Notes under the pieces: model-generated
Databases searched by the model: none
Seen by the model: the letters and a program-made list of their open reading frames with translations, nothing else
What the model was told of the DNA's origin: nothing
Shown: positions 25,858 to 44,481 of the stretch, one piece after another
How positions within the stretch are numbered: the stretch's first letter is position 1
Layout of the letters: each line of letters opens with the position of its first letter
Translations under genes and position numbers: made by a program
DNA from: Chromobacterium sp. ATCC 53434
GTDB taxonomy: Bacteria > Pseudomonadota > Gammaproteobacteria > Burkholderiales > Chromobacteriaceae
NCBI RefSeq assembly: GCF_002848345.1
Contig: NZ_CP025429.1
Coordinates: forward strand, 4,774,001 to 4,838,000
Length of the DNA: 64,000 bases
Reading direction: 5' to 3'

Positions 25858-26079
25858 TCATGTAAAAACCGCGCCGATGGGCGCGGTTTCACGTGGAACG
25901 TTGATCGTTGTTAATTGGTAGTTCCAGTCGATGGGGGGGGGGCGGTGGTCTGCTGGCGCGGGGATATTGTCTTGTCCTTGCCACTCCAGATAGGCGCACC
26001 AATCGCGATTGGAGGTATCCTGTGGGACGAACAGATTCTGTTCGATCAGTTTCACACCATTTTGGGTCAGTTGGTACAT
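25858..26079 (-). CDS. Small phage tail-fibre-associated protein
   Basis: A 73-residue protein of the type often found beside phage tail-fibre genes (MYQLTQNGV, then NRDWCAYLEW). Its function is unknown, possibly fibre assembly. A run of ten C residues (minus strand) lies within the codons for PPP at about residue 47, so the reading frame could switch by slippage. It overlaps the bidirectional terminator at its end. Confidence 0.6.
   Translation of the reverse strand: MYQLTQNGVKLIEQNLFVPQDTSNRDWCAYLEWQGQDNIPAPADHRPPPIDWNYQLTTINVPRETAPIGAVFT
25866..25889. terminator. Bidirectional terminator between transporter and tail cluster
   Basis: Ten-bp stem AAACCGCGCC / GGCGCGGTTT with a four-base loop. 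It lies inside the last codons of the 73-residue tail-cluster ORF and overlaps a parS-like site. Confidence 0.65.
25886..25899. promoter_or_regulatory. parS-like site, one mismatch
   Basis: GTTTCACGTGGAAC, one base from the perfect core, at the edge of the tail cluster. Confidence 0.55.
25933..25942. repeat. Ten-base poly-G/C tract
   Basis: Ten consecutive G on the plus strand inside the 73-residue ORF. Tracts of this length commonly slip and can produce phase variation. Confidence 0.8.
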
Positions 26080-26100
26080 GATTGATTTCTCCCGCTGTAT

Positions 26101-26537
26101 TTAGAGTTCGGCATCCGCAGACCAGCTGTATTGCCAAAGCGTGGTTCCTACGGCTGGACTATCCGTGATGATCATGCCCAACGCATTGGTATCGCACTCC
26201 ACTGCAATGACCTTCAATGGCGATAGTTCACCGGAATTCTCGATAAAACCTTGATCGCCGGTACTGGGGCGATAAATCGTGATGGAGGGCATGGCTCTCT
26301 TGGTGACTTTGAAAGTGGTGCCGGGAAACCAAATCAAACCAGGGTGTGAGCACACATTGGAATTGCCTCCATTGATATAAACAGTACCGGGTGCTTTTCC
26401 GATTGGATAGGATGTTTCATAGTAACGTTGGCAGAGTGACAAGTCGGTGTAATAAGGACGTGTTTCGAATTCGCTGGCTATCGTTCCCTTTTCCACTTGC
26501 ACATCGCTAATGATGAAGCTGAAGAAGGGGCTGTTGC
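26101..26537 (-). pseudogene. Tail fibre C-terminal fragment cut off by IS630
   Basis: Encodes about 145 residues of a fibre C-terminus: SDVQVEKGTIASEFETRPYY then LSLCQRYYE, a signature seen at the ends of many phage fibres, followed by a beta-rich tip. It has no start of its own; the 5' side runs directly into the IS. Removing the IS and one TA restores an open frame with the upstream fibre part (27664-29132), 636 codons in all, so both are probably halves of one gene. Confidence 0.75.
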
Positions 26538-26539
26538 TA

Positions 26540-27661
26540 TTAATCCGGCAGTCAAATACCGTACAGAAAGCTCATGCCGCGTAGCGGATTTTTTCATGCC
26601 GGAAGTACGACCGGATTCTGGCCGGCTGCTTCTGCAATGAGCGTAAATGGGACAGCACTTTCCCTTGAAGTTGACCGTCTGATCGAACCGGCTCACCTGC
26701 GCTCATTCTGGCCTTCAGGTCGCCGTTCAAGTATTCATCCGGGTTCAGTTCCGGTGAGTAGCTGGGCAGGAAGAACAACTCAATCGCCTTCTTGTTCTCT
26801 TCCTCCTCCAACCATGCTTGCACCAGCTTGCTGTGATGCACGCGCAAGTTGTCGAGGATCAAGAACACCTTCTTGCCGCCAGCATCACGGATCAGCCGCA
26901 TCAGAAACTTGATCAGCACCCGGGCCGTCAAGGTCTCCCGGTACAGCATGAAGCGCATCTTGCCTTGGTTGGTAATGGCCGAAATCAAGTTGATGCGCGC
27001 TCTTTTCGATTGGGATAACACCAGAACTGGGGTTTGGCCTTTTGGGGCGTAGCCACGCGGAAAGTGCTCAACACTCGACACCGCCGATTCGTCGCCCCAG
27101 CTGATTTCAGCCATTTCCGCTTTGGCACGCGCGACGATAGCCGGGTATTCCTCCTTGAGCCATTTCTCGACTGCTGCCGGTCGCTGCTCATAAGCGCGTT
27201 TGAGCGGGCGCTGCGGCGTAAAGCCCCAGCGGGCCAAGTACAGACGGACAGTACGGATCGGCAGATCGATCAGAAACATCTGCTTGATTACAGCCTTGAC
27301 CGCCTGAGCACTCCACAGGGCAAACCTCAGCTTCATCTGGTCTGGCGTGCGATCCACGATGTCCTGCTTGATCCGGGCTTCCTGCGCCTCGGTCAGCCGA
27401 CGGCCGGTGCCTTCGGCGCGACCGCGCTTCTGTTCTTTGAATCCCTGCGCACCTAGTGCTGCCTCACGCACCACCCAGGCGGAAATGGTGGGGCGGCGCA
27501 GCCCGAGTTCTTCGGCAATACTGGCTTGAGACCGGCCTCGCTTGTACATCCGGATAGCGGTACGCCTCAGCTGCTCACGGGCGGCCAGTTCAAGCTTGCG
27601 CACATCGATTTTTTCCATGCCGGAAGTATACAATCTGTACGGATTATTACTGCCGAATTAA
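26540..27661 (-). mobile_element. IS630-family insertion sequence
   Basis: 1122 bp. The imperfect terminal inverted repeats start TTAATCCGGCAGT (left) and TTAATTCGGCAGT (reverse complement of right) and share CCGTACAGA further in. Each end abuts a TA dinucleotide (26538-26539 and 27662-27663), the target duplication typical of the IS630/Tc1 group. One intact transposase gene fills most of the element. Inserted in a tail-fibre gene. Confidence 0.88.
26572..27618 (-). CDS. IS630-family transposase
   Basis: A 348-residue transposase. The N-terminal HTH (RSQASIAEELGLRRPTISAWV) is followed by a DDE domain: SWGDESAVSS (first Asp), FLILDNLRVHHS (second Asp) and LPSYSPELNPDEYLNGDLK (Glu), the IS630/Tc1-mariner layout. 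Start chosen at 27618 (MEKIDVRKLEL). It appears intact, so the element may still be mobile. Confidence 0.92.
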   Translation of the reverse strand: MEKIDVRKLELAAREQLRRTAIRMYKRGRSQASIAEELGLRRPTISAWVVREAALGAQGFKEQKRGRAEGTGRRLTEAQEARIKQDIVDRTPDQMKLRFALWSAQAVKAVIKQMFLIDLPIRTVRLYLARWGFTPQRPLKRAYEQRPAAVEKWLKEEYPAIVARAKAEMAEISWGDESAVSSVEHFPRGYAPKGQTPVLVLSQSKRARINLISAITNQGKMRFMLYRETLTARVLIKFLMRLIRDAGGKKVFLILDNLRVHHSKLVQAWLEEEENKKAIELFFLPSYSPELNPDEYLNGDLKARMSAGEPVRSDGQLQGKVLSHLRSLQKQPARIRSYFRHEKIRYAA

Positions 27662-29132
27662 TAGCCTGCTTTGGTGCAATTTTTAGCCCAACCATTGTTG
27701 GCGAGCATCGTTGAATTGATATTCGAGAGGAAGCCGTAGCTGGTGCAGTTCTTGCTGTAGCCATGTCCGCACACATCACGCCACCCCATTCGGCTTGATA
27801 CCCAATGTCAACATTGCTTGCCTTGCTGCGCCTGCCCTGTGGCAGACTGGTGCGAGGAGTGGCACCGCCGCTCCAGCACACTCCGCCATATTGCGCATGG
27901 AAGCCAACGTCTGCCTGGTCCACAACTGTGCCGTCGCAGCCGATATACGCATTACGTACGCTGAAGCAACCCTTGTTTACATTGGAAATGCGGCTATCAA
28001 CTGCCCAGACTTTGCCACCATCTTGGCAACCGAGGCCATAGGATGTGATCGGCCCCATGTCGGGATCGACAAAAGCCGGTGGTGTGGTCTGTACTATTTT
28101 GCCCAATCCGGTCAGCACGCACTTTTGCAATGAGACGTATGCTCCGCCGCTAATGATCGCTGCCCATCCCTTGCAATTCGAAATGCGAATCTGGTCAAAA
28201 TTGGCACGGGCGTTTTGGTCCACCTCTAAACCGTTGCTGGCGCCTTCCAGCACAATGCTGCCGATTGTGGAGTAAACGACGGATCCTTCGTCGACCCGCA
28301 GGCAGCGGTAACTCCAATGGTTGGCATTGGCCTCGCCGACGATGTGAAAGCCGGAAAAGCTGACACCATGCACACGGGAAAAGACCACGCCGTAGCTAAG
28401 CTTCTTGCTGTCGGGTATCAGGATGATCTTGCATGCCGAAGGGTTGGCGACATTGCCCTGGATGCGGATGCGGCTGGCGAATGGTTGGTGGGTCAACGCA
28501 ATGCCGCTGGTCGTGTACTGGCCGTCGGCCACCTGGATCAGCACGTCGGCCTGCAGCACCTTGCCGATCAGGCTGTTCCAGGCATCCTGGATATTGGCGA
28601 ACGGTTGGCCGGGGCCGACCTGCAGCGTGGTATAGCCCTGTATTCCCCAGTCGCTGGTTTTCATCGCGTCGGCGATGCCGTAGCCGGTCAGCGTGGTGGC
28701 CTTGTCCGCCTTGCCGGCCAGCATCTTGGTGACCGATGCCGCGTAGCTGGCGTCGTTGCCCAGCGCCGCCGCCAGTTCCTGCAGCGTGTTCAGCGCGCCG
28801 GGCGCGCCGGCCACCAGATTGTTGACCGCGGTTTGCAGGTCGGTCTTGCTGGCGCCGTCGACGATGCCGTAGCCGGCCAGCGTGGTCGGCTTGTTGCTGC
28901 CGCCCCAGGCGATGTTCTGCACCGCCTGCTGCAACTGGTCCTTGCGCGAGGCATCCGGCGTCTGGCCGCTGTTCTTCAGCAGGGTCAGCACTTCCTGCTG
29001 CGTGGACTGCACGACGGTCTGCATGCCGTTCAGCCACTCAGAGGTGACTACCGTGCCGAGTTCGCCGGTATAGGGGTTGCCGTCGTGGAACAAGCCATCG
29101 GGGCTGTTGATTGGTTTGAGCTGGTCTTGCAT
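27662..29132 (-). pseudogene. Tail fibre 2, interrupted by IS630
   Basis: About 490 residues of fibre. The N-terminal 130 residues (HDGNPYTGELGTVV, NKPTTLAGYGIVDGASK) are nearly the same as in fibre 1 at 29900-31051 and should attach to the baseplate. A right-handed beta-helix-like region follows, with repeated short G-rich rungs. In the last 110 bases before the IS, codon bias and a repeated KNCT motif lie in another frame, pointing to a two-base insertion in the CACACA run near 27770. So the gene carries both an IS and a probable frameshift and is likely inactive as it stands. Confidence 0.75.
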
Positions 29133-29322: not shown

Positions 29323-29889
29323 TTACCGGGAGGGCGTTTCCCAGCGGATGGCCGAGAGCCGGGATGGCGCGTCCGGCGAGGCCAGGTCGACGGCGTCGAG
29401 CCTGTCCGCCAATGCCTGTTTGCGGCCGATGATCTTGCCGGCCTCGATGGCGTAGGCATCAGCCTTGGCGCGCACTCGGCCGGCCAGCTCCGTCACCGTC
29501 AGGCCGCGGGCCTGGGAGATGGCGCTCAGCAAGGGCGTGGACGCCGCCGGATTGGCCGCGATATCGCGTGCTTCGCGCTCCTGCTGCGGCCAGCTGTCCA
29601 CTTCGCGTTCCGGGTAGGCCAGGCGCAGCGCGGCCAGTTCCTGGTCGCAGCCAGCGCGGATGGCGGCATGCCGGGCGGCTCGCAGCTGTTCCGGCGTCGC
29701 TTGCGGCGCGACATACGATTGCACGGCGCCGTCGCGCACCATCATCTCGCCCTGTGCTTGGGAGGTCCATTCGGCATCGCTGCACGAGTGCAGCAGGGCG
29801 GCGTCCGGCAGATTGCAGTTGTGGGCCTCGGTGTCTATCCATTGCAGGACGCGGCCGTCGACAGGGTTGAAATAGGCGAATTTGCTCAT
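29323..29889 (-). CDS. Tail fibre assembly protein
   Basis: A 188-residue protein. The N-terminal half (FAYFNPVDGRVLQWIDTEAHN, then GEMMVRDGAVQSYVAP) and a charged helical second half with RHAAIRAGCDQELAAL fit the Mu U / P2 G / lambda Tfa group of fibre chaperones. AAGGAG precedes the ATG at 29889. It directly follows fibre 1, as such chaperones normally follow their fibre. Confidence 0.78.
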   Translation of the reverse strand: MSKFAYFNPVDGRVLQWIDTEAHNCNLPDAALLHSCSDAEWTSQAQGEMMVRDGAVQSYVAPQATPEQLRAARHAAIRAGCDQELAALRLAYPEREVDSWPQQEREARDIAANPAASTPLLSAISQARGLTVTELAGRVRAKADAYAIEAGKIIGRKQALADRLDAVDLASPDAPSRLSAIRWETPSR

Positions 29890-29899
29890 TATTTTCTCC

Positions 29900-31051
29900 T
29901 TACCATTCAATGAAGATCACGCCGGGGGCGCCGTTCGCGCCGGCGATGCCGCCGTCGACGCTGCCCGCGAAGCCGCCGCCGCCGCCGGAGCCGAAGCCGG
30001 AACCGTTTTGGGAGACGCCGCCAGCCCAGTACCACCAGCCTGTGCCGCCGCCGCCGCCGAACGGCGAATTGCCGCCCAGTCCGCCGGGGTAGCACATATT
30101 GGTCGTCGGTCCGCTCCAGCCTGTGGTGCCCGGTGCCATGCCCGGGCCGCCATTGCCCGGGCTGGCGCCATTCCCCCATGTCCCGTTGGTGTTGCCGGGG
30201 CCGCCGCCAGTGCCGCCAGGCAGATTCAAACCGATTTCGGCGATGGCGGTGGCGCCGCCATTGGTGCCGATGATGCCGGCGGAGCCGGTCGCGCCGTTGC
30301 CCGGGCCGCCCAGGCCGCCACTGCCTCCTCCGCCGATGACGATGTTGAGGATTTGTCCGGGTCTGACCGCGTAGTCCTGGCGCATGACATGATTGCCGGC
30401 GCCGCCGCCGCCGCCTGCCGCCATGACGCTGGCGCTGCTGGCGCCGCTGCCGCCGCCACCCCCGCCGCCGCCGCAGCCGGAGACATAGATGCGGGTTACG
30501 CCGTCGGGCACGGTGAACTGCCTGTTGCTGGTGAAGCGGGCCTGGCGTTGGAAATAACGGGCATCGCTTTGCGCTTTGGTCTGCGCGTCGCCGATGCCGT
30601 AGCCGGCCAGCGTGACGGCCTTGTCGGCTTTGTTCGACAGCTGCTTGGTGATAGTGGCGGCGTAGTTGGCATCGTTGCCCAATGCCGCCGCCAGTTCCTG
30701 CAGCGTGTTCAGCGCGCCGGGAGCGCCGGCCACCAGATTGCTGACGGCAGTTTGTAGATCGGTCTTGCTGGCGCCGTCGACGATGCCATAGCCGGCCAGC
30801 GTGGTGGGCTTGCTATTGCCGCCCCAGGCGATGTTCTGCACCGCCTGCAGCAATTGGTCCTGGCGTGTCGGGTCGGCTTTCTGGCCGCTGTTCGCGATCA
30901 CCGACAGCATTTCCTGCTGGGTGGATTGCGTGGCGGATTGCAGGGTATTCAGCCAGTCGGCCGAGACGACAGTGCCCAGCTCGCCGGTGGCGGGGTTGCC
31001 GTCGTGAAACCGCTGGTCCGGCGTGGGCACGAGCTTGATGGGGTCTTGCAT
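29900..31051 (-). CDS. Tail fibre 1 with glycine-rich tip
   Basis: A 383-residue fibre. Residues 1-130 are shared with fibre 2 and form the baseplate end. From about residue 175 the chain is extremely glycine-rich (short GGGG runs, SGGLGGPGNGATG, FGGGGGTGW) and ends GVIFIEW, a pattern found in the tips of phage fibres and adhesins that bind cell-surface sugars or proteins. The tip would set target range. Intact, with its assembly gene next to it, so this is probably the working fibre. Confidence 0.82.
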   Translation of the reverse strand: MQDPIKLVPTPDQRFHDGNPATGELGTVVSADWLNTLQSATQSTQQEMLSVIANSGQKADPTRQDQLLQAVQNIAWGGNSKPTTLAGYGIVDGASKTDLQTAVSNLVAGAPGALNTLQELAAALGNDANYAATITKQLSNKADKAVTLAGYGIGDAQTKAQSDARYFQRQARFTSNRQFTVPDGVTRIYVSGCGGGGGGGGSGASSASVMAAGGGGGAGNHVMRQDYAVRPGQILNIVIGGGGSGGLGGPGNGATGSAGIIGTNGGATAIAEIGLNLPGGTGGGPGNTNGTWGNGASPGNGGPGMAPGTTGWSGPTTNMCYPGGLGGNSPFGGGGGTGWWYWAGGVSQNGSGFGSGGGGGFAGSVDGGIAGANGAPGVIFIEW

Positions 31052-31138: not shown

Positions 31139-31717
31139 TTATGGCTGGTAGGCGAAGTAGACGAAGGTGTGGGCCGGCTTCAGATCGTTGAACAGTTCTT
31201 CCAGCTTGGGGTCGCCGAAAGTGGACAGGCGTTCGCCCGCCAGCGATTGGCCGGCGCGGAACTGGTAGGGGCGGACCTTGCTGCCGAACACCGTCACCAG
31301 CCACACCCAGGGAATGTCCGCGCTCCACAGTTGCTGGCCGGCGCGGTTGACGCCGGCGCGGAACGGCTGCGGCTCGGCGATCTGGATCTTGTAGCCCATG
31401 CCGGCCGCCAGCCGGGTGAAGTAGGGGATGGACAGGCCGCCGGTTTCGGCCAGCTTGGCCAGCACCGCCTGTTGGCGTTGCTGGTAGGGCGCGTCGGGCG
31501 GCGGCGTCAGGCCGCACACCCGTTCCCAGTCCGGCAGCAGGGCTTCGGCCTGCAAGGGCGTGACGGCGCCGGCCAGCTGGCGGGCCGAGTTCTGCGCGCG
31601 GTCCAGCGCCGCGCCCTCGCTGGCAAGCTCGGCTTGCAGCCGCGGGCCGTCCGGGCTGTAGCTGACCGGCGGCAGCAGCCGGGTCAGCAAGTCCTGATAC
31701 GGTGGTTGTGGCGTCAT
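31139..31717 (-). CDS. Mu gp48-like baseplate protein (DUF2313)
   Basis: A 192-residue protein of the YmfQ/Mu gp48 family: early LLPPVSYSP, DWERVCGL in the middle and LKPAHTFVYF at the end. It forms the hub-fibre side of the contractile baseplate. The ATG at 31717 overlaps the stop of the baseplate J gene by ATGA. Confidence 0.82.
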   Translation of the reverse strand: MTPQPPYQDLLTRLLPPVSYSPDGPRLQAELASEGAALDRAQNSARQLAGAVTPLQAEALLPDWERVCGLTPPPDAPYQQRQQAVLAKLAETGGLSIPYFTRLAAGMGYKIQIAEPQPFRAGVNRAGQQLWSADIPWVWLVTVFGSKVRPYQFRAGQSLAGERLSTFGDPKLEELFNDLKPAHTFVYFAYQP

Positions 31718-32802
31718 TGCAGCGCCCTCATCGTCAGTTTGCCCAGCCGCAGCCATTCCACTTTGCTTTGATCGGATACCGGATCGATGTTGCCGGCGGG
31801 CGCGTTGAGCTGGCGGTCCTGCACGCCGGGCAGGTCGGAAATCAGCGCTTCGATCCGGCTCTTGACCAGCCGCTCGCCCGGCGCGAGGCCGGCGAAATAG
31901 GCCTGCAGCGTTTGCTGCAGCAACGGCGTGAAGGTGTCCGGGTTGGCGCCGCCCAGGTTCAGCGCGACGTCGATGTCGACTGGCCGCGGCGTCGGCGCCA
32001 GCACCAGGCAGCTCTTGGCGGTGATCGGGCGCAGGTCTTCGATGTGGCTCTGCACATTGCTGAGGATCTCCTGCGACGGCAGGTCGCCGTTGGCGGTGAT
32101 CACCACGTCGACGGTGCCCAGGCCGCGGCGCAGCGGGTAGACGTAGGCGGCGGAGACGCCTTTCACTTCCATCGCCCAGCGGCGGTAGTCGTGCTTGTTG
32201 CCGCCGGCCGGCGGGCGGCGGATCAGTTCCAGCAGGCGGTCCAGCAAGGCAGCGTCGTCTTCGACGTCGACGCCGTTGCGCATGCTGAGCAGCAGCGCCT
32301 TGGCGGCTACGCCGGGCGGCGCCTGCATCAGTTCCACCGGCAGACTGTCCGGCTGGTTGGCGGCGGTGCCGGCCTGGCCGGCGAAGATGGGCAGCTCGGC
32401 CTGGCCGTTGGCGTCCAGCCTGGCCGCGTAGGGGCTGCCGTCGGGATTGGTGGCCGGCGTGGCGTACAACTGCTCGGCCACCCGCAGCTGTAGGCTGCCG
32501 GTGACGGTGGCGCCGGCGTTGCCGCTGATGCGCAATGTGCCGCTGGCGGCGGAGGCCGGCTTGCGCACGATGCCGCGCAGGCGGGCGTGCTGTTCCAGGT
32601 ATTCGCTGTCGGCGGTGTCGGGGAAGATCTGGCGGGCGATCCAGCTCTGGTGCTGGTACAGGCCTTCCACCGCGCTGGCCACCGAGCTCGCGCGGACGAA
32701 GTAATCGCTGTCCGGCGCGATGTCGGCGTCGGCGCGCAGGTTCTGCAGGTCGCGCAGCAGCGCGTCGCGGATGCTGGCGAAATCGGGGGTGGGCAGGGGC
32801 AT
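31714..32802 (-). CDS. Baseplate J protein (Mu gp47)
   Basis: A 362-residue baseplate wedge protein of the GPJ/Mu gp47 family, with LYQHQSWIARQIFPDTADSEYLEQHA near residue 50 and GVSAAYVYPLRRGLGTVDVV in the middle. It overlaps both neighbours by a few bases (single-operon packing). Confidence 0.88.
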   Translation of the reverse strand: MPLPTPDFASIRDALLRDLQNLRADADIAPDSDYFVRASSVASAVEGLYQHQSWIARQIFPDTADSEYLEQHARLRGIVRKPASAASGTLRISGNAGATVTGSLQLRVAEQLYATPATNPDGSPYAARLDANGQAELPIFAGQAGTAANQPDSLPVELMQAPPGVAAKALLLSMRNGVDVEDDAALLDRLLELIRRPPAGGNKHDYRRWAMEVKGVSAAYVYPLRRGLGTVDVVITANGDLPSQEILSNVQSHIEDLRPITAKSCLVLAPTPRPVDIDVALNLGGANPDTFTPLLQQTLQAYFAGLAPGERLVKSRIEALISDLPGVQDRQLNAPAGNIDPVSDQSKVEWLRLGKLTMRALQ

Positions 32803-33152
32803 CAGGCTATCCTCACTTGATGTTGGAAATGGCGGATGTGGCCGCCGGTTTCGGCGACTTCGATGTTCAACAGCAGCCGGCCGGAGCCTTGCCGTTGCGA
32901 CGACACCTGGACGCGGTTGGCGCGGCCGTCCTGCAACAGCGGCTGCAGCGCTTGTTCGGCGTATTGGCAGGCCAACAGGTCGATGCGCTTGCTGTCCTTG
33001 CTGCGGGACAATTCATGCAGGCGCGAGCCCAGCGTCGGGTCGGCCCACCAGCCGCCCAGCGGGGTCATCAGGCGCAGGTAGACGGCGTTGGCGATGGTGT
33101 CGGTGGAGGGGCCGGCGTAGTCGCCGGTGACGGGGTCCAGCAATGGGTCCAT
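32802..33152 (-). CDS. Mu gp46-like baseplate protein
   Basis: A 116-residue protein of the GP46/gpW-like group: VYLRLMTPLGGWWADPTLGSRLHEL is the family core. It is a small wedge component of the baseplate. The start shares one base with the preceding baseplate J end. Confidence 0.85.
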   Translation of the reverse strand: MDPLLDPVTGDYAGPSTDTIANAVYLRLMTPLGGWWADPTLGSRLHELSRSKDSKRIDLLACQYAEQALQPLLQDGRANRVQVSSQRQGSGRLLLNIEVAETGGHIRHFQHQVRIA

Positions 33153-33231: not shown

Positions 33232-33861
33232 TCAGCCCTTGGGCGGGCTGGTGACGCCGCCGGAGTCGCCGTTGTGGATGTGGCCCTGCAGGCTAATGCC
33301 GCCGGCCTTCACGTCGCCGCTGGCGCTGACGCTGCCGGTGACCTTGGCGCCGCCGCCGCCCTGGATGGCCAGGCCGCCATTGCCGCTGATCTGGCCCTGG
33401 GCGACGAACTGCGCGCTGGCGTTCAGCGTGGGCGTGGTGAAGCTGGCCTGTTCGCTGGCGTTGACCTGCCAGGTCTTGCAGTCAAGCAGGAAGGTGTCGC
33501 ACTCGACGGCGATGATTTTGCCGCGTTTGAGCACGATTTTGCTGCCTTCGTCGCTGTATAGCGCTACTTCGCCGGCTTGCAGCGACTGCAGCCGGTAGCT
33601 GCCGTGCTCGGTGGCGATCACCACGCTGTGGCTGCTGCGGCCGCCCAATGGCAGCACCATGGCCATGCTGCCCGGCGGCGGGTTCGAGGTGTAGCCGTAA
33701 TGCTGGAACAGCTCGGCGTCCTGCAGCCGCTCGCCGGCCAGCGCGTCGGCTTGGACGGCCTGCACGCCGCCATCGCTGTCGACGTGGGTCAGCACCGCGC
33801 GAAAGCCCTGGCGCACATTGCTGAAGGCGCGCCGTATCCGTTGATCTACTTCATGCCACAT
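33232..33861 (-). CDS. Baseplate assembly protein V (Mu gp45)
   Basis: A 209-residue spike/assembly protein. An OB-fold-like N-terminal region (QHYGYTSNPPPGSMAMVLPLGG) is followed by beta-rich repeats and a C-terminal H-x-H-containing GHIHNGDSGG, a motif that in Mu and P2 spikes coordinates iron at the membrane-piercing apex. This is expected to be the puncturing device of the particle. Confidence 0.85.
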   Translation of the reverse strand: MWHEVDQRIRRAFSNVRQGFRAVLTHVDSDGGVQAVQADALAGERLQDAELFQHYGYTSNPPPGSMAMVLPLGGRSSHSVVIATEHGSYRLQSLQAGEVALYSDEGSKIVLKRGKIIAVECDTFLLDCKTWQVNASEQASFTTPTLNASAQFVAQGQISGNGGLAIQGGGGAKVTGSVSASGDVKAGGISLQGHIHNGDSGGVTSPPKG

Positions 33862-37989: not shown

Positions 37990-38441
37990 TCACCCCATCG
38001 AGGAGACGAGGGACGCCTGCATGCGGCTTGCGGCCTGCAGATAACCGTCCAGTTCAGACTCGGTCAGTTGGCTGATCTGGGGTTCAGTCAGTCCGTATTG
38101 GCCGAGAAGGAGGACGGCTTCGCGGTAGTCGGCGAGGCGCTTTTCGCGTTGATCCGCTTTTTTTTAAGCGCATTGCGCATGTCGATCAGCAGCTCGAAGT
38201 CATCGTCCACCAGGTTTTGCGACAGGAAGTCGGTGGTGATGGCTTCTACCGGCATGCCGCCCAGCTTGGTCAGGCAGCGCGCGGTGAGCGCCAGATTGAA
38301 CAGCAGATTGGAGTCGGCGCCGACTTCGTCGATGGCGGCGATGCTGTCGGCAACCATCGGCAGGCGCAGGTCCACGTCGTAATGCATTTCGCCCTGATAT
38401 TCCACGCCATAGCGCAGGCGTGCTTGCATGGCTTTCATCAT
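37990..38441 (-). CDS. Tail assembly chaperone, -1 frameshift product (gpGT-like)
   Basis: The zero-frame product (38088-38441) is 117 residues, Mu gp41-like. At codons LKKK the sequence A AAA AAG allows a -1 shift; the new frame stays open with good codon use for about 55 more residues (ADQREKRLADYREAVLLLG, then EPQISQLTESELDGY) and stops at 37990. This mirrors the G/GT frameshift conserved upstream of tape-measure genes in many tailed phages. The longer protein is a bridge that loads tube subunits on the tape measure. Confidence 0.8.
38088..38441 (-). CDS. Tail assembly chaperone, zero-frame product (Mu gp41-like)
   Basis: A 117-residue protein: QARLRYGVEYQGEMHYDVDLRLPMVADSIAAIDE and TARCLTKLGGMPVEAITTDFL, the gp41 chaperone core. 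It begins at one of two adjacent ATGs overlapping the tail-tube stop. After LKKK the remaining 23 residues are lysine/serine-rich and unlike the family, as expected of the short non-frameshifted tail. Confidence 0.82.
   Translation of the reverse strand: MMKAMQARLRYGVEYQGEMHYDVDLRLPMVADSIAAIDEVGADSNLLFNLALTARCLTKLGGMPVEAITTDFLSQNLVDDDFELLIDMRNALKKKRINAKSASPTTAKPSSFSANTD
38157..38163 (-). promoter_or_regulatory. Programmed -1 frameshift slippery site
   Basis: Heptamer A AAA AAG in zero frame, part of a run of eight A on the minus strand. It is the same heptamer used by E. coli dnaX. Confidence 0.78.
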
Positions 38442-38812
38442 TCCACCACCTTCCGCAGCGACATCAGCTTGATGTCACGGCGAGCTTCGTTTTCCACACC
38501 GTACTTCTCGCCGACTTCCAGCGTGAAGCAATCGAGGTAGCTGGTGCGCTTGCCGCCCGCGGCCAGCGGGAACTCGGTCAGCTTGGCGCCTTCGATCGCC
38601 TCCCAGTCCAGATCGCCGGTCAGCGGAATGGAGACGGTGACGGACAGGTCGTACTCGGTGATGCCGCGGGCGAAGCCCTTGGCGCGGCCGGTGGAGTTCA
38701 TCGTCTTCACGACCTTGCGGCCGGTCTTGCTGCTGACGTTGAGGTCGATGACGTCGATTTCCTGGCCGTTCACTTCCAGGACGATGGAGCCTGCGTATTC
38801 TTTCAAAGCCAT
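38438..38812 (-). CDS. Tail tube protein (Mu gp40/gpM)
   Basis: A 124-residue protein with the Mu gpM features: an opening YAGSIVLEVNGQEIDV, then VKTMNSTGRAKGFARG and a C-terminal RDIKLMSLRKV. It polymerises into the rigid inner tube of the contractile tail. It follows the sheath gene, the standard order. Confidence 0.88.
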   Translation of the reverse strand: MALKEYAGSIVLEVNGQEIDVIDLNVSSKTGRKVVKTMNSTGRAKGFARGITEYDLSVTVSIPLTGDLDWEAIEGAKLTEFPLAAGGKRTSYLDCFTLEVGEKYGVENEARRDIKLMSLRKVVE

Positions 38813-38939: not shown

Positions 38940-40364
38940 TTACAGCAGCAGGTCGATGCGGCCGGCGAACACGTGCAGGCCGTTGACCACGTCCACCGGG
39001 ATCTTGGCGTCCAGGCGGTTGGCGTCCTGCAGGTCGCGCTCGACGATCAGGCCGGCTTTGTTGGCTTCGACCTGCTCGATGATTTCCAGCTCTTCCAGCT
39101 TGTACAGCACGTCCAGCAGCTCGGAACGGACCTTGGACGGGGTGCGGTCGGACAGCTTTTCGCGCGGGAAGCGCAGCGCGATGCGTTCGCGGCAGGACTT
39201 GCGGACATAGTCCAGCGTGCGGATGGTGGTGATGTCCAGCAGCGACACGTCGTCCACGCCCTGGGCATCCTTGGTGTAGGTGCTGATCGCGCGGACGATC
39301 TGCACGCGGTTGCCGGCGGCCACTTCCAGCGGGGTCACGCCGTTGTACAGCGCGTTTTCCTGCTCGGTGCGGGTCGTGCGGGACGCCAGGTCCACCACGT
39401 CCAGGCCCGGCAGTTCCAGCGTGTTCAGCGGGCGGGCCGGATCTTCTTCGCTGGCGATCACGGCGGCGTAGGCGGCGGCGATGTCGCCGGACAGCTTGGC
39501 CGAGCCGCGGTACCAGGCGGCGGTGATGCGGCCGCTGTCCAGCTTGGCGGACAGCGCCGAGGCGTCGGCCAGCGCGCCGGTGGTGGCGATCACGCCGATG
39601 GCGCCGCGCTGTTCCAGCGGGCCGGAGACGAAGTCCAGGTGGGTGCGCAGCGCGGTCAGCGCGGCATCGTTGGTGAGCGGGCTGGCGATGATCTGATGAC
39701 CGCCGCTGGCCACGGCGGCCAGTGCCGGCGCGATGTCCGGATCGCCGGCGCCGCCTTTCATCGGGGCGACGACGACGCCGAGGCCGGCGATCTGTTCCTG
39801 CGCCTTCAGCGCGATGCCGTTGCCGACGCTGCCTTTGTGGCGGGCGGTGACGGTCAGCACTTCCTTGGCTGCGGACGCGGTGACCGACAGGTCGGAGAGC
39901 TTGGCGAGGGCGGCCTGGGCGTTGGCGGAGATCTTGGTGGCGTCGTCGCCGGCGGCCACGGCCACATCGACGCGCACGGTGCCGATGAACAGGCTCAGTA
40001 CGCCGGCGGCGGCGGCCGGGCCGCTGAAGGTGAAGGAACCGGCGGCGGCGGTGCCGGCGGCCGCGTCGTCCACGGCGATCACGGTCAGCTGCAGATAGGG
40101 GTTGGCGTTGATCGCGGCGCGGGCCATCAGGTGGGCGTTGGAGCCGCGGCCGAAGGCCTGGGCCGCCTGCTCGTCGCTGAATACGTCCAGCGCGGTCAGC
40201 GCCGGCTGGGCGGCGGTATCGGCCAGGCGCTGACCGATCATCAGCACGCGCTGCGGGTTGCCCGGCAAGGTGCGCACCGCCAGTTTGGTGTTGAATTCGA
40301 AATATTTGCCCGGTTTGCGGATCGAGGCCGGAATCTGGTCGAAGCTGATGTTGGCGCTAGCCAT
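38940..40364 (-). CDS. Contractile tail sheath protein (Mu gp39/gpL)
   Basis: A 474-residue sheath subunit, similar to Mu gpL in length and blocks: ISFDQIPASIRKPGKYFEFNT at the N-terminus, LMIGQRLADT, VAPMKGGAGDPDI and a C-terminal VNGLHVFAGRIDLLL. Sheath contraction drives the tube through the target envelope, so the particle is R-type rather than F-type. AAGGAAAGA-like sequence precedes the ATG. Confidence 0.93.
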   Translation of the reverse strand: MASANISFDQIPASIRKPGKYFEFNTKLAVRTLPGNPQRVLMIGQRLADTAAQPALTALDVFSDEQAAQAFGRGSNAHLMARAAINANPYLQLTVIAVDDAAAGTAAAGSFTFSGPAAAAGVLSLFIGTVRVDVAVAAGDDATKISANAQAALAKLSDLSVTASAAKEVLTVTARHKGSVGNGIALKAQEQIAGLGVVVAPMKGGAGDPDIAPALAAVASGGHQIIASPLTNDAALTALRTHLDFVSGPLEQRGAIGVIATTGALADASALSAKLDSGRITAAWYRGSAKLSGDIAAAYAAVIASEEDPARPLNTLELPGLDVVDLASRTTRTEQENALYNGVTPLEVAAGNRVQIVRAISTYTKDAQGVDDVSLLDITTIRTLDYVRKSCRERIALRFPREKLSDRTPSKVRSELLDVLYKLEELEIIEQVEANKAGLIVERDLQDANRLDAKIPVDVVNGLHVFAGRIDLLL

Positions 40365-40433: not shown

Positions 40434-41132
40434 TTACTTGGCGGACGGCGCCGGATTGGCGACGATGTCCTGGGCCTTGACGGCGGCGGAGCCGGCCAGG
40501 TTGTAGTTGAGCTGGGTGCTCTGCCAGGTCTTGGCCGGATCTTCCAGCCGGCCGCCGAAGGCGCGGAACAGCGCGTCGGGGTCGGCGTCGGCTTGCGGCG
40601 CCGGCCAGTGGCCGTTGTCCAGCGCCTCGTCCAGCCAGTAGGTGCTGAAGTCGCAGGCCACCAGGCTCCACGGCTGGCCATCGCGCGGCGCCTGGCCCAG
40701 CGGGCGGACTTTCTCCGGCAGCAGCGGATTGACCGCCAGGCCGAAATCCTGCGAGGCCAGCAGGCGGCGCGTCGCGTAGACCAGTTGCCAGACGCCGGCG
40801 CCGGCGTAGTTGGCGTCGGCCTGCAGCCGGTCGCCGACGATGACGGTGAACAGCGCGTTGGCTTTGTAGCGCAGCCGTTGGCTGGCTTGCGGCTGACTGG
40901 ACGTGATGCCGCCGGCGACGGTCCACAGCGCCGGCAGCCTGGCCAGCGCCTGTGGATTGATGGTCGGGCTGGACTGGCCGGGCGTGAGCCGGCTGGCGTA
41001 GTCGCCGTGGGCCAGCTGCAGGCCGCACAGGGCGGTTTCGTCCAGATCCGCCGCCACTTCGCGCACCATCCGGCCCATGCCTTGGCGCAGGCGGTCGGCG
41101 ATGGCGGTTTGCACGGAGATCAGCATGGACAT
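40434..41132 (-). CDS. Mu gp37-like tail protein (DUF1834)
   Basis: A 232-residue protein of the gp37/K group, expected at the tail terminus. It opens SVQTAIADRLRQGMG and has a middle VIVGDRLQADANY. I begin at 41132 because AAGGA is then six bases upstream; from the ATG at 41138 it would be too close. It is the first structural gene before the sheath; a small gp38 equivalent is not seen in the 70-base gap to the sheath gene. Confidence 0.72.
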   Translation of the reverse strand: MSMLISVQTAIADRLRQGMGRMVREVAADLDETALCGLQLAHGDYASRLTPGQSSPTINPQALARLPALWTVAGGITSSQPQASQRLRYKANALFTVIVGDRLQADANYAGAGVWQLVYATRRLLASQDFGLAVNPLLPEKVRPLGQAPRDGQPWSLVACDFSTYWLDEALDNGHWPAPQADADPDALFRAFGGRLEDPAKTWQSTQLNYNLAGSAAVKAQDIVANPAPSAK

Positions 41133-41192
41133 GGTCATTCCTTGGAGCGGTGGAGAAGATGGGGTGATTGTGACGCCGGAGGGCGTGGCGGC

Positions 41193-41344: not shown

Positions 41345-41560
41345 TCAGTGCACCATCCGTTTGAGCAGTTCGCCGGCCAACGTGACCAGCAGCGCGGACA
41401 GCGCGCCGGACAGCGCGCCGCTCTTGGCGGCCTGGACTTCGACGTCGCGCAGGCGGCCGTCCAGTTCTTCCAGCTTCTTGTCCTGTTTGGCGAGGTGGGC
41501 GACGATCATGTCAAGCTTGCCTTCTATGCGGCCCAGGGCCAGCAGGTTGTCGTGTTCCAC
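41345..41560 (-). CDS. Small helical membrane-anchored phage protein
   Basis: A 71-residue protein: a coiled-coil-like N-terminal half (LDMIVAHLAKQDKKLEELDGRLRDVE) and a C-terminal hydrophobic helix (SGALSALLVTLAGELL). It lies among lysis genes and could be a holin accessory or antiholin; function is unproven. A parS-like site overlaps its start. Confidence 0.55.
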   Translation of the reverse strand: MEHDNLLALGRIEGKLDMIVAHLAKQDKKLEELDGRLRDVEVQAAKSGALSGALSALLVTLAGELLKRMVH

Positions 41561-41567: not shown

Positions 41568-41569
41568 CC

Positions 41570-41767
41570 TCACTTTTCGGTCAGTTGTTGGCACAGCACG
41601 CAACGGGTACAGCTGGGAATGGCCACGCGGCGGGAGTCGGGAATCGGATCGCCGCAGTCCTCGCAGTGGCTGAGGCCGCTTTGCTGCCATTGCTGGAAGT
41701 GGCGGGCCAGCGCCTGTTCGCGGAATTCGGTTTCCAGCTCGCTGGCGCGATCGAAGAAGTCGGTCAT
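41570..41767 (-). CDS. TraR/DksA-type zinc finger protein
   Basis: A 65-residue protein with the short TraR layout: an acidic helix (DRASELETEFREQALAR) and a C4 finger (CEDCGDPIPDSRR, then CTRCVLCQ). Phage and plasmid TraR proteins bind the RNA polymerase secondary channel and mimic ppGpp/DksA. It may tune host or cluster transcription during induction. The ATG at 41767 overlaps the spanin stop by ATGA. Confidence 0.85.
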   Translation of the reverse strand: MTDFFDRASELETEFREQALARHFQQWQQSGLSHCEDCGDPIPDSRRVAIPSCTRCVLCQQLTEK

Positions 41768-42327
41768 GGTGTGGGTTCCTGTGCGGGGTAGAGTTGTTTC
41801 AGGGCGACGAGACGCTGCTCCAGTTGCTGACACCAGGCGCCGTAGTCGGCGGCATGGGCGAGGAGGTCGGGCGCCGGTAGCCCGGCATCGGCGCCGGCGG
41901 CTTCGGCGGCAGCGCCAGCAGATAGGGGCTGGGCGCCGGGCAGCTCGGCGGAATAGCCGAGGAGCTGGCGGTAGAGGCGCAGGCTGTCAGGGCCAAGGCC
42001 AGTAAAGCGGTCGCCGTCGTGGCGTGTGGCATCGTCGATTCTCCGGGCTTGTTGGTTTTGCCATTGCTGCAGCGTCTGCTGCTGGACCAGCACGCGGCTT
42101 TCCAGCTGGTCGACGCGCTGCCGCCATGCTTGCTGGCTGGCCAGCGCGTCGGCCTGCTGCCGCTGGATTTCGATGGCGCGCGCGGTCTGCAACGCGCCGA
42201 CGCGGGCCTGCAGCGCCGCCTGCCAGTAGCGCTCGCTTTGCGCGTGGCCGGCGGCATAGCCGGCGGCGGCTGTGACGACAGGCAGCAGCAGACAGGCGGT
42301 TAGCCGCAACGCGGGAAGGCTGATCAT
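41764..42327 (-). CDS. Rz-like inner-membrane spanin
   Basis: A 187-residue protein with one N-terminal membrane helix (ALRLTACLLLPVVTAAAGYAAG) and a long periplasmic coiled coil (AIEIQRQQADALASQQAWRQ onward), the build of an i-spanin. A second ORF encoding a lipoprotein is nested inside it in another frame. Spanins fuse inner and outer membranes in the last step of lysis, needed to release particles. Confidence 0.82.
   Translation of the reverse strand: MISLPALRLTACLLLPVVTAAAGYAAGHAQSERYWQAALQARVGALQTARAIEIQRQQADALASQQAWRQRVDQLESRVLVQQQTLQQWQNQQARRIDDATRHDGDRFTGLGPDSLRLYRQLLGYSAELPGAQPLSAGAAAEAAGADAGLPAPDLLAHAADYGAWCQQLEQRLVALKQLYPAQEPTP
41799..42032 (-). CDS. Rz1-like lipoprotein spanin, nested in Rz gene
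   Basis: A 77-residue ORF wholly inside the Rz-like gene in a different frame. It has a short signal peptide with lipobox LTAC (ALLALALTAC) and then a proline-rich mature part (PPSCPAPSPYLLALPPKPPAPMPG), typical of o-spanins. GGAGAATCGACG precedes its ATG at 42032. The nested Rz/Rz1 arrangement is as in lambda. Confidence 0.8.
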   Translation of the reverse strand: MPHATTATALLALALTACASTASSSAIPPSCPAPSPYLLALPPKPPAPMPGYRRPTSSPMPPTTAPGVSNWSSVSSP

Positions 42328-42545
42328 GGCTGGCTCCGGTTGCGATAGGCGGCGATCATCCGCAGCGAGGCGGAATAGCCGCCGACCACGCCCAGGTAGA
42401 TCAGCCAGATGTCGGGCGTCAGGGTGCCGCGCCAGCCGTCGCGGATGAACATCGCGGTGGCGGCGGCGCAGGCCACGTTGGCCCACAGCCGGCTGTGGCT
42501 GAGGCGGCGGCTGTGCGGATTGCGCAGCAAGTCGGCGGGATGCAT
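42324..42545 (-). CDS. Holin-like small membrane protein
   Basis: A 73-residue protein with two hydrophobic helices (ANVACAAATAMFI and IWLIYLGVVGGYSASL). Its position between endolysin and spanins suggests the holin. The family is not certain (similar small proteins occur in Mu-like phages). The end overlaps the spanin start by ATGA. Confidence 0.65.
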   Translation of the reverse strand: MHPADLLRNPHSRRLSHSRLWANVACAAATAMFIRDGWRGTLTPDIWLIYLGVVGGYSASLRMIAAYRNRSQP

Positions 42546-42547
42546 GT

Positions 42548-42952
42548 TCAGATCTCCAGCGGAAGTTGGAAGTGTGGGAGTTCGTGCGGCTGCGTTGCCG
42601 ACCGGCCGTGCCAGCGTAGGCCGAGCGCTTCGGCGATTTCGCCCATCGCGTGCCAGTGGGGGTGTTCCGGATCGGTGACCGGTTTGCCGGCCAGCAGCGG
42701 CATCGCGTCGAAAGCGCGGGCTGCCGGGCTGCCATAGAGCATGGCGTTGTGGGCGGATTGGCCGGGGCGGGCATCGGTGGCGACGGCGCCGGGCTTGCCG
42801 CGGCCCAGCTGGTACAGCGCCTCCTGTTCTTCGGCCGAGCGCCAGGTGCAGAGGATCAGCGGGTCCAGGCCCTGGTCGCGGCAGCGGCGGAGAAAGGATT
42901 CGGCCAGCGGTTGCAGTTGCGGATGCAGATCGGAAATGGCGCGGCTGGCCAT
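42548..42952 (-). CDS. Endolysin, M15-type peptidase
   Basis: A 134-residue M15/VanY-like peptidase of the L-alanyl-D-glutamate endopeptidase type: LCTWRSAEEQEALYQLGRG, then the zinc motif area QSAHNAMLYG-(S)PAARAFDAMP and a final EHPHWHAMGEIAEALGLRW. It cuts peptide cross-links so that particles can escape. No signal peptide, so it needs the neighbouring holin. Confidence 0.82.
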   Translation of the reverse strand: MASRAISDLHPQLQPLAESFLRRCRDQGLDPLILCTWRSAEEQEALYQLGRGKPGAVATDARPGQSAHNAMLYGSPAARAFDAMPLLAGKPVTDPEHPHWHAMGEIAEALGLRWHGRSATQPHELPHFQLPLEI

Positions 42953-42980
42953 GCGGCGTTCTCCTGCGCGGGATGGAAGA

Positions 42981-43400
42981 TCAGTGCACTTCGTTCGGCG
43001 CCGGCGGGGTTTTCAACACGCGCCAGATCATGCGATCGCTCAGGCGGTAGCGCATCGCCAGCAGGCCTACCGCCTCGTTGGCGCCCAGGCCTTCGATCAG
43101 CAACTCGTCGAAGTCGCGGATCAGCTGCTGATTGCGCGCCTGGCGCAGTGCCTGGCTGCAGCGCGGGATGTAGAGAATGTCGCCGCCGAAGTGGTGGGTC
43201 AGCTGTTCGGCCGCGTCCTGGCCGATGACTTCGACCAGCGCGGCGAAACGCAGCTGGCCGGCGCGGCTCTGGTTCTTGGAGAAGGGCAGCGTCGTGCCGC
43301 CCAGCGCCTGCACCAGTTGCAGCGTGCGCGGCATGCCGATCAGATTGGCCACCAGTTGCATGGTGGAGGGCAGGACGGGGAATTGCGCATTAGTGTTCAT
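42981..43400 (-). CDS. Mor-family transcriptional activator
   Basis: A 139-residue Mor/C-type activator: N-terminal dimer region and C-terminal HTH (GLGANEAVGLLAMRYRLSDRMIWRVL). In Mu, Mor and C switch on middle and late genes. Here it is the first gene of the minus-strand cluster and should activate the lysis and tail genes, the part PrtN plays for pyocins. GGAG lies eight bases before the ATG at 43400. Confidence 0.83.
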   Translation of the reverse strand: MNTNAQFPVLPSTMQLVANLIGMPRTLQLVQALGGTTLPFSKNQSRAGQLRFAALVEVIGQDAAEQLTHHFGGDILYIPRCSQALRQARNQQLIRDFDELLIEGLGANEAVGLLAMRYRLSDRMIWRVLKTPPAPNEVH

Positions 43401-43722
43401 CACGGAGACTCCTGGGTTCCCAAATAGCCTTGGCAGACATCAAGTTCTAAATAAGTTATAATTCGCCAAAGCGGTTAGCGAGCAGCACGGTGGAAATTTT
43501 TGGAACTTTTTATATTTTCATTATGAATTTTAGTGCTAAATTGAGTAGTCCAACTAGATAGTAGAACTACTTATGCAGTTCGATTGCCATTCTATGCCTG
43601 TGTTTTGAACTTATCAAGCTAGCGGATGTCACTACCGATGTCAGTTGCAATCGCCGATATGACGAGAAAATGGTACTATCGACGGCCGCTGCAGCCGTAC
43701 TTGCTTACTGAAGGAGTTCCAA
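43401..43722. promoter_or_regulatory. Divergent control region between activator and repressor
   Basis: About 320 bases without a gene, strongly AT-rich compared with the window. An inverted repeat at 43544-43571 (AGTAGTCC, 12-base spacer, GAACTACT) is a candidate operator for the S24-type repressor. On the minus strand a TATAAC hexamer near 43455 could be the -10 of the activator promoter. Confidence 0.55.
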
Positions 43723-44481
43723 ATGGATGATTCTGTGCAGCATTCCGACTTCCGGCATCGCCTGGAACTGCTGATCGGTTCCGAAAAGCCTTATGCCTGG
43801 GCCGCGCGCATCGGCATCAACAAGGGCTCGTTCACCAATATGTGGTACAAGGGCGGCGTGCCAAGGACCGCGACCGCGCGCAAGATCGCCGACAGCTGCG
43901 GTTGCAGACTGGAATGGCTGTTGTACGGCGATGAGCCGGTATGGCTGGAGCCGGAAGACATCCACGCCGCGTCGCCGTCGAGTGCCGAGATGGATGCGCC
44001 GCTTGCCCCTCCGCTTCGGGCCGACGGCGACGACCATTTCGTACCGGCTGGCGTGCACGAGGAGTTCTGTTTCATACCGCGTTATAACTTGAAGGCGTCG
44101 GCCGGTTTTGGAACCAGCGCGAGCGCCGAGCAGCCGATGTTCTATATGGCGTTCCGCCGTTACTGGGTGAAGAACTATCTGAACGCGTCGCCGCGGGATC
44201 TGGCCGTGCTCAGCGTCAAGGGCGACAGCATGAGCGGCGTGCTGGAGGACAGGGACACCATTCTGGTCAACACCGCCGAGCGCAATCCGGGAGAGGGCCT
44301 GTTCGTGATCCGCATCGGCGACGATATTTTCGTCAAGCAGCTGCAGCGCCTGCCGGGCAGCGCGGTGCAGGTCAAAAGCGCCAATCCCTTGTATGAGACC
44401 TTTACCGTCGACCTGGTCCGGACCGCCGGCGAATTCGAGGTGATCGGGCGGGTGGTGTGGTTTGGCCGGCAGATCGCCTGA
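43723..44481 (+). CDS. S24-type phage repressor (CI/PrtR-like)
   Basis: A 252-residue repressor. The N-terminal HTH of the phage CI type (residues about 8-70, ARKIADSCGCRLEWLLYGDEP) is followed by a LexA/CI-like S24 peptidase domain: Ser169 in VKGDSMSG and Lys205 in DIFVKQL as the catalytic pair. Such repressors cleave themselves when RecA is activated, so the cluster should be induced by DNA damage. Divergent from the Mor-type activator, as prtR is from prtN. AAGGAG precedes the ATG. Confidence 0.88.
   Translation: MDDSVQHSDFRHRLELLIGSEKPYAWAARIGINKGSFTNMWYKGGVPRTATARKIADSCGCRLEWLLYGDEPVWLEPEDIHAASPSSAEMDAPLAPPLRADGDDHFVPAGVHEEFCFIPRYNLKASAGFGTSASAEQPMFYMAFRRYWVKNYLNASPRDLAVLSVKGDSMSGVLEDRDTILVNTAERNPGEGLFVIRIGDDIFVKQLQRLPGSAVQVKSANPLYETFTVDLVRTAGEFEVIGRVVWFGRQIA

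Follow-up and report, generated by a model that had tools for sequence, protein, structure and literature searches.

Is the contractile-tail locus of Chromobacterium sp. ATCC 53434 what remains of a Mu-like prophage, or has the bacterium kept it as a bacteriocin? The locus lies at positions 25858-44481 of a stretch of 64,000 nucleotides (the window) from the complete genome of this strain (5,138,981 bases), and combines the tail genes of a Mu-like phage with genes for lysis and control. The block is most likely an R-type tailocin induced by the SOS response. We consider it very probable that it is a domesticated tailocin, which originated from a Mu-like phage and has become fixed in Chromobacterium, flanked by a DMT transporter gene and gmhA. 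This reading is well supported, since the block is conserved throughout the genus, mostly at a single site, is under purifying selection, has no head genes, keeps the cleavage residues of its repressor intact and has an empty counterpart site in a related genus.

The block was followed in 19 Chromobacterium genomes including its own; 17 of the 18 relatives have the tail. From the sheath matches 27 stretches were taken for locus comparison, which are a part of all matches. The sheath gene of the tailocin was detected in 18 of the 19 genomes. A first-pass annotation of the window had proposed to search relatives for the same headless block at the same site, and it was found there: of the 17 tail-bearing relatives, 16 have the repressor end beside gmhA (G005 was read from L135 and L173, G001 from L057), the exception being locus L037. 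At the other end of the block, 9 of 18 relatives showed the DMT transporter gene, and two (G005 and G011) show its neighbor without it; in six the stretches taken did not reach this side, and L037 is located elsewhere. In two genomes taken as Aquitalea, the DMT gene and gmhA are adjacent, about 110-130 bases apart, and form an empty site. As is expected of an R-type tailocin, the block is stably inherited at a fixed site, except in L037 (other site) and in the relative G017 (tail lost).

Selection on the genes was determined as the median pairwise ratio of nonsynonymous to synonymous substitution rates (dN/dS). For 16 tailocin genes, with up to 18 loci for each, it was 0.12-0.47, and for gmhA (12 loci) it was 0.17. 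These values refer to aligned parts only; copies covered to less than 85% were left out, as were pairs whose dS exceeded 1.5 or was saturated (at most 24 per gene) or was no higher than 0.02, and the fibres and the tape-measure slot were excluded. The single stop in the aligned parts, in gp48 of L037, is located upstream of a possible start. Because dN/dS is well below 1 and the frames are open, the tail is under purifying selection and not in decay. A one-off occurrence or decaying tail genes in relatives, which the annotation had named as findings that would speak against a tailocin, were not seen (18 of 19 genomes, purifying selection).

The terminase, portal and capsid genes had been called missing, and this was borne out by searches of the window and of the whole genome. 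The queries came from Klebsiella phage ST405-OXA48phi1.1, whose sheath (65%) is the most similar among annotated phages. Twelve of its proteins for head, packaging and transposition were tried on the window and none matched (best E 0.21), so that the transposase A/B, terminase, portal and capsid of a transposing Mu-like prophage were not detected. The large terminase, portal and capsid of the Klebsiella phage had no match in the complete genome either, and PF04233 was not found there. The capsid query did match in four of eight other genomes tried, and tblastn found both terminase and portal in loci of other genomes. Protease, capsid and gp36 were found by tblastn in all eight Mu-type prophage loci of the family (L039-L046), and nine head and transposition proteins in none of the tailocin loci of the 17 genus relatives, nor in L038, a tail locus of strain JH1-16 from another genus of the family. 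With headed prophages as positive control, the block is without capsid, portal, terminase and replication genes, like R-type tailocins.

Head genes elsewhere that could complement the tail had also been named as evidence against a tailocin, and for large terminase, portal and capsid none of Mu type was found in the genome. A second, different prophage does have portal and head genes and its own tail, with a sheath 36-38% identical to that of the tailocin. This locus (L047/L167, 2.31-2.34 Mb) was considered as a second headless tailocin and rejected; it is most likely an ordinary prophage, because matches to portal, head morphogenesis and integrase genes lie further upstream. Mu-type head queries gave no match on L047, whose head genes show by PHROG only. 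An HNH-like gene and a copy of an IS630-family insertion sequence (IS) are located directly behind its sheath gene.

The tail genes follow the order of phage Mu, as the first-pass annotation had proposed from gp37 to gp48 with a frameshifted chaperone. PHROG and Pfam confirmed gp37, sheath, tube, chaperone, tape measure, DNA_circ_N/gp43 and gp44-gp48, and a slippery site agreed with the frameshift. The sheath is 31% identical to that of phage Mu over 99% of its length. On the minus strand, from 43403 to about 25858, the order is Mor, endolysin, holin-like protein, nested spanins, zinc finger, small protein, tail and fibres. The block has the complete contractile tail and baseplate gene set of an R-type tailocin and its own lysis genes, the holin being assigned from position only. 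The tail, lysis and flanking genes are as follows, with lengths in amino acids (aa).

42548..42952, minus strand: endolysin, VanY-type peptidase (phrog_465 and PF02557)
42324..42545, minus strand: holin-like small membrane protein, 73 aa, from sequence and position; matched in 16 of 17 genus relatives
41764..42327, minus strand: i-spanin Rz, 187 aa (phrog_1403)
41799..42032, minus strand: o-spanin Rz1, 77 aa, nested in Rz, from reading frame and motif (LTAC, which we take to be lipobox-like)
41570..41767, minus strand: DksA/TraR-type zinc-finger protein, 65 aa (PF01258, E 9.7e-12)
41345..41560, minus strand: small conserved protein, 71 aa, with a hydrophobic C-terminal stretch; 65-99% identity in the loci of 17 of 17 relatives
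40434..41138, minus strand: Mu gp37-type tail protein (PF08873, E 1.4e-46)
38940..40364, minus strand: tail sheath (phrog_165, E 3.3e-177; PF04984/PF17482)
38438..38812, minus strand: tail tube (phrog_185)
38088..38441, minus strand: tail assembly chaperone gp41 (phrog_508), putative -1 frameshift product to 37990
36206..37951, minus strand: classic tape measure, 581 aa (phrog_794), the last approximately 46 residues being the shared docking-like C-terminus
34902..36206, minus strand: gp43, DNA circularisation-N type hub protein (PF07157 and phrog_184)
33872..34918, minus strand: gp44 baseplate hub (phrog_177, GpP-like Pfam domains)
33232..33861, minus strand: gp45 baseplate spike (PF06890)
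32802..33152, minus strand: gp46 baseplate wedge (phrog_180)
31714..32802, minus strand: gp47 baseplate J (PF04865, Baseplate_J, E 1.3e-65)
31139..31756, minus strand: gp48 baseplate (PF10076)
25858..26079, minus strand: small frame with no assigned role, at the 3' end of the block and adjoining the DMT stop codon
24966..25856, plus strand: flanking host gene, DMT-type transporter (TIGR00950, E 3.8e-15, below its cut-off)
44552..45136, plus strand: flanking host gene, gmhA-type isomerase (TIGR00441, above its cut-off)

Of the lysis and control set proposed earlier, the endolysin, the nested spanins, the Mor activator and the S24 repressor stand by their families or reading frames, whereas the holin-like protein, which had no family match, is named from sequence and position only. 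The PHROG label 'portal' (phrog_490) on the gp37 gene was dropped and the gene was not counted as a head gene, because PF08873 identifies Mu gp37. In the chaperone gene an A-rich -1 slippery site is located at 38168-38157, from which the -1 product would end at 37990; the slippery stretch CTTAAAAAAAAG is identical across the three genus loci with gp41. The DksA/TraR-type zinc finger between spanins and tail genes is retained in the loci of 17 of 17 genus relatives, and the small conserved protein beside it had no Pfam match. No RNA family reached the gathering threshold in 24000-46000, and the window has no tRNA, so integration at a tRNA is not supported.

Unexpectedly, the genus loci differ in what they encode from the tube to gp43, a slot that shows only when relatives are compared. 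In the window, L029 and L030 it holds gp41 and a classic tape measure of 581-602 aa. In the other 15 of 18 genus loci no gp41 match was found and a single slot protein of 561-762 aa is encoded, with L037 having two tandem frames (543 and 440 aa), of which the second is 35% identical to the glycine-rich type of L028. The slot proteins share with the window tape measure essentially the last approximately 46 residues and a low-complexity linker; the end of the 440-aa frame of L037 is only loosely similar. The tail of L038 has the same modular slot type. This JH1-16 locus (L038/L061) has a tube 98% and a sheath only 71% identical to those of the window, and homologous endolysin and holin-like genes.

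Pfam was run with curated cut-offs on all 16 slot frames of the genus and gave matches above cut-off in nine of them: NlpC/P60 in seven, two of these with Glyco_hydro_19 as well, Peptidase_M23 in one and Mbeg1-like/Lipase_3 in one (L034). One further frame had NlpC/P60 below cut-off and six had no match. The three classic tape measures gave no Pfam match, and the L038 slot protein has an SLT domain. Nine of the 16 genus frames and L038 thus carry an enzyme domain at a structural or loading position. When the C-terminal 54 residues of the L021 slot protein were searched against 5.8 billion proteins, 42 proteins were obtained from 76 candidates: 31 named Chromobacterium, one Paludibacterium phage tape measure and 10 nameless ones including that of the window itself, several of the 42 belonging to genomes already in the comparison. 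By precomputed Pfam assignments 25 of them have enzyme-type domains, 16 none and one a phage tape-measure domain. Among them are two proteins with a VgrG3-like C-terminal domain of the type VI secretion system (T6SS; P0026 and P0030), a glucosaminidase and a lipase-like protein (P0031); P0025 is probably the lipase-like protein of L034. Similar ends can occur in the tape measures of Mu-type prophages in the family (L044 clearly, L040 loosely, and also L068), so that the shared C-terminus looks like an ancestral tape-measure end that docks on the hub.

Exchange of the slot was examined in eight locus pairs (blastn, E 1e-5, pieces of at least 40 bases). The flanking DNA was 92-98% identical in seven pairs and 90-92% in L028/L030. 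Similarity upstream stopped at about the end of the tube gene in all eight pairs, and resumed ahead of gp43 at a distance of 71-125 bases in six of them, of 219 bases in L024/L026 and of 579 bases in L021/L025, where both loci have a common linker (repeat matches inside the slot). No slot DNA similarity was detectable in L031/L034, L031/L032, L032/L034, window/L025 and L028/L030, and patches of 68-79% were present in L021/L022 and L024/L026. Quick trees of the upstream and downstream genes, with the Shimodaira-Hasegawa-like approximate likelihood ratio test (SH-aLRT) only, placed the three classic loci in three places, with three changes each. By this pattern the slot is a recombination cassette, of which the window genome holds the classic version.

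As a control we analyzed 46 headed non-duplicate loci; 30 had a gp41 match and in 35 the tape measure was aligned to at least 20%. Twenty of them were inspected, including all 16 without a gp41 match. A frame of approximately 100-190 aa is located between the tube and a tape-measure-sized frame in 18 of the 20 (none was listed in L096 and L110), and the latter frame starts at least 375 bases after the tube in all 20. In the 15 loci with slot proteins 21-239 bases separate the tube from the slot frame, and no more than 249 bases are left outside the large frames, where neither gp41 (354 bases) nor an immunity gene of usual size would fit. AlphaFold models of the L032 and L028 slot types, which have no family match, were too poor for use (mean pLDDT 34.9 and 43.7), and a sequence search of the PDB with the same types gave nothing convincing (best E 0.76 and 0.18). 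Taken together, the slot suggests tailocins that carry effectors or built-in lysins.

The control region of the block consists of the following features.

43723..44481, plus strand: S24-type repressor, 252 aa (PF00717, E 4.4e-17), with A127-G128, S169 and K205 in place
43404..43722: divergent regulatory gap of 319 bases with several AGTTCTAAA-like boxes, from the alignment of 19 loci
43589..43617, minus strand: sigma70-like promoter toward Mor, TTGATA-17-TAGAAT, with a 1-mismatch box in the spacer (consensus match, 10/12)
43434..43462, plus strand: sigma70-like promoter toward the repressor, CAGACA-17-TATAAT, with an exact box in the spacer (consensus match)
42981..43403, minus strand: Mor/C-type transcription activator, 140 aa (PF08765, E 1.3e-14; phrog_836)

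An Ala-Gly cleavage pair, a serine and a lysine are the self-cleavage residues of S24 repressors, and A127-G128, S169 and K205 were invariant in all 10 homologues aligned (of 19 available). SOS-type induction is accordingly predicted from the repressor family together with these residues. Within the gap, TTTAGAAC was invariant in 19 of 19 aligned regions. The 64-kb window has five boxes with at most one mismatch, each of them inside the gap or at its edge (43443-43723), a number reached by 3 of 100 shuffles. The promoter toward Mor was largely conserved in the 19-locus alignment, and the one toward the repressor, which faces it, is the most conserved block. This block beside Mor is nearly invariant across the 19 loci. 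Its 18-base pattern has one exact copy in the genome, the next best two having three mismatches, and matches with three mismatches were about as frequent as with a reversed control (3 matches). The arrangement would be a bistable switch, with both promoters shut by the repressor as long as the SOS response has not set in. Mor was found in 19 of 19 genus genomes and was closest (50-52%) to proteins at three other places in them, two of which are located 13 kb from the sheath gene of a headed Mu-like prophage (G002 and G016).

At the far end of the block are the fibre genes and an IS element, the insertion of which into the second fibre gene had not been reported in the first-pass annotation.

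29900..31051, minus strand: fibre A, 383 aa, with a Gly-rich tip and an open frame (several PHROG fibre families, PF21722)
29323..29910, minus strand: probable fibre assembly protein, from position (phrog_2618, unknown function, E 4.8e-22)
27567..29132, minus strand: fibre B, with an anchor like that of fibre A; the frame enters the IS
26537..27664, minus strand: IS630-family element, ends approximate, transposase 26572-27633 (NF033545, E 4.6e-68)
26101..26502, minus strand: C-terminal tail fibre piece (phrog_4492, positions 969-1096 of 1096), the link to fibre B being only possible

The IS630 element has probably broken fibre B in this strain. At least 42 full-length, about 100% identical copies are present in the genome (40 of 77 candidates scored). 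Such nearly identical copies point to a recent burst, with one interrupting fibre B and another in the second prophage. At least two fibre anchors were found in 17 of 18 genus loci, in one orientation, although some partial matches may share a gene. A Mu-like fibre inversion system was considered and is not supported, because all anchors share the same orientation in the 19 loci examined. Six loci (L023, L027 and L031-L034) have an optional insert between the small conserved protein and gp37, with one collar-type fibre-like protein of approximately 215-430 aa. The same insert, of 0.8-1.5 kb, was considered as an immunity gene and rejected, as by eye it encodes collar-type fibre-like proteins.

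Several findings weigh against a fixed and domesticated tailocin under Mor control. The locus of strain TC5R-5 (L037) sits away from gmhA. The empty site comes from one genus, and in G022, of another genus of the family, gmhA has no DMT neighbor in the 11 kb taken. In the strain studied here one fibre gene (fibre B) is probably broken, and G017 has lost the tail and keeps repressor, Mor and lysis genes. In the latter genome (L168, G017:C1:3557000-3568000) a truncated gp37 is kept and everything from there to the DMT gene is deleted, and therefore the weapon is dispensable there. Its repressor, Mor, endolysin, holin-like and spanin frames are open, leaving an SOS-type lysis switch without a weapon. 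In the control region both promoters are consensus matches only (two found, against a shuffle mean of 0.9). Finally, Mor control is not universal, as neither Mor nor the repressor has a match in the headless tail locus L038.

The interrupted fibre gene and the lost tail of G017 are what a decaying Mu-like prophage that lost its head by chance would leave behind. This explanation is nevertheless very unlikely, as the same headless state is found genus-wide, with open frames and dN/dS well below 1. Equally improbable is that the tails complement heads made by another phage, as a satellite would with a helper. The second prophage of the genome could provide portal and head genes, but it has its own sheath and tail genes, no Mu-type terminase, portal or capsid matched in this genome, and the tailocin is present in genomes without a Mu-type capsid match (its own, G005, G006, G014 and G015). 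Some Chromobacterium are insect-active, and enzymes carried in the lumen recall the cargo of extracellular contractile injection systems (eCIS), so that a particle aimed at insects or protists, like Afp or PVC, also has to be weighed. We regard this as unlikely: the lysis cassette, the phage-type fibres and the bacterial-wall enzymes point to bacteria, and a review, in the text available, reports R-tailocins only against bacteria (PMC10598620).

A closer rival concerns the slot proteins of the relatives, which may be ordinary tape measures with built-in tail lysins that open the peptidoglycan for the needle. Muralytic domains are known in phage tape measures or hubs (TM4, enterococcal phages and the diffocin hub, according to the parts of the sources available), most slot domains found here are muralytic, and there is no room for the usual immunity gene beside the slot frame. 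A lysin is less expected to be lipase-like (L034, with P0025 probably the same protein, and P0031) or VgrG3-like (P0026 and P0030). The loss of gp41 in 15 of 18 genus loci, with at most 239 bases before the slot frame compared with at least 375 in the 20 headed loci, also speaks against ordinary tape measures, as does the difference in domain type between L031 and L034 despite approximately 93% identical flanking DNA. We hold built-in lysins to be a tentative explanation, somewhat short of an even chance. At about an even chance we place the reading that, after head loss, the tape-measure C-terminus became a loading tag for rapidly exchanged antibacterial proteins, and that a lysis-released particle injects these effectors, the chaperone not being used for length. 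Cargo types would then be peptidoglycan hydrolases, lipase-like and VgrG3-like proteins and, judged by eye, membrane proteins of the glycine-zipper kind. That wall hydrolases predominate and that an immunity gene is lacking fits either effector or lysin. Sequence does not decide between the two, but effectors are favoured by the lipase-like and VgrG3-like types, by how fast the slot is exchanged and by the loss of the chaperone.

Beyond the gene content, conservation, selection, site and exchange pattern established here, the following course of events is proposed for the tailocin. The S24 repressor, bound to AGTTCTAAA-like boxes in two facing promoters, would hold Mor off. Upon DNA damage the repressor would undergo RecA-assisted self-cleavage, as its residues suggest, and Mor might then drive one long lysis and tail operon. 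Headless contractile tails would assemble and be released through lysis by the endolysin, the holin-like protein and the spanins. Fibre A would set the target range, with fibre-directed binding followed by contraction. Particles of this family kill by needle puncture. In the relatives, an enzyme on the docking tag, as which we read the shared tape-measure C-terminus, would sit in the tail lumen and enter the target envelope. If true, this would be a natural cargo-loading tag for bacteriocin-type tails, and the non-measuring roles of the tape measure become testable. A natural tail-deletion strain and an empty site in a related genus are available for comparison.

In the literature searched, mostly at title and abstract level, we found no description of a Chromobacterium tailocin, nor of a tape measure replaced by effector-type proteins. 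A quorum-sensing-regulated sheath operon of C. subtsugae was considered and taken for a phage, as it has a capsid cement gene in the text available. Among annotated phages, Klebsiella phage ST405-OXA48phi1.1 (65%) and Haemophilus phage SuMu (49%) have the sheaths closest to that of the block. In the former the tail genes follow the order of the block and Mor is 41% identical, but it carries the transposase, terminase, portal and capsid that the block is without. Mu-like prophages of the genus are closer (sheath 67-69%, Mor 50-52%). Sheath relatives were also present on 61 plasmid records, among them H56-H65 (61-65% identity) from Klebsiella, Yersinia ruckeri, Raoultella and Citrobacter.

Tailocins with this logic of repressor, activator, lysis and tail had been said in the first-pass annotation to derive from P2-like tails. 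That holds for the R-pyocins of P. aeruginosa, with their P2-derived tail, but the R-type tailocins of P. syringae are reported to derive from phage Mu (both in the available text of PMC12090994). The R-type syringacin is, like the block, a headless Mu-derived contractile tail (PMC12090994); it has a fixed site, and recombination of its killing spectrum is described (PMC6331570). It sits between trpD and trpE (PMC6331570), whereas the block is not at that site and is found at DMT-gmhA; these two systems were compared by description only, from the text available. R-pyocins share with the block a LexA-like repressor with an activator, lysis genes and a headless contractile tail, but have a P2-derived tail and the PrtN activator where the block has a Mu-type tail and a Mor-type activator. 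The earlier proposal that a Mu-derived, Mor-controlled tailocin would be a distinct type thus stands in part: Mor-type rather than PrtN-type control does look distinct, and no paper comparing the two was found in the literature searched, whereas Mu ancestry of a tailocin was already known from P. syringae. New are the Mor control and the DMT-gmhA site. The block would be a genus-wide example of a Mu-type tail converted to a likely weapon, in which a Mor/S24 switch replaces PrtN/PrtR. BceTMilo of Burkholderia cenocepacia is likewise a headless beta-proteobacterial tail with a CI-like repressor; it is RecA-dependent, as is predicted for the block, and unlike the block it has the Ogr late regulator in common with KL3 and P2 (PMC5411513, in the text available).

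For the slot, carotovoricin of Pectobacterium comes close, as a genus-wide tailocin with a variable tape measure; the gene forms nine homology groups, given without further analysis in the available text (PMC13195805). There the tape measure follows a tail assembly chaperone, and enzyme domains are not described in that text. According to PMC10598620, in the text available, R-tailocins are not known to carry effectors, and glycine-zipper similarity between T6SS effectors and tape measures has been reported (PMC10240207, likewise). In T6SS and eCIS, enzymes are fused to or loaded in the contractile tail, a likeness underlined by the VgrG3-like domain of P0026 and P0030. The tag of the Chromobacterium relatives would instead be a tape-measure C-terminus, in a bacteriocin-type locus released by lysis.

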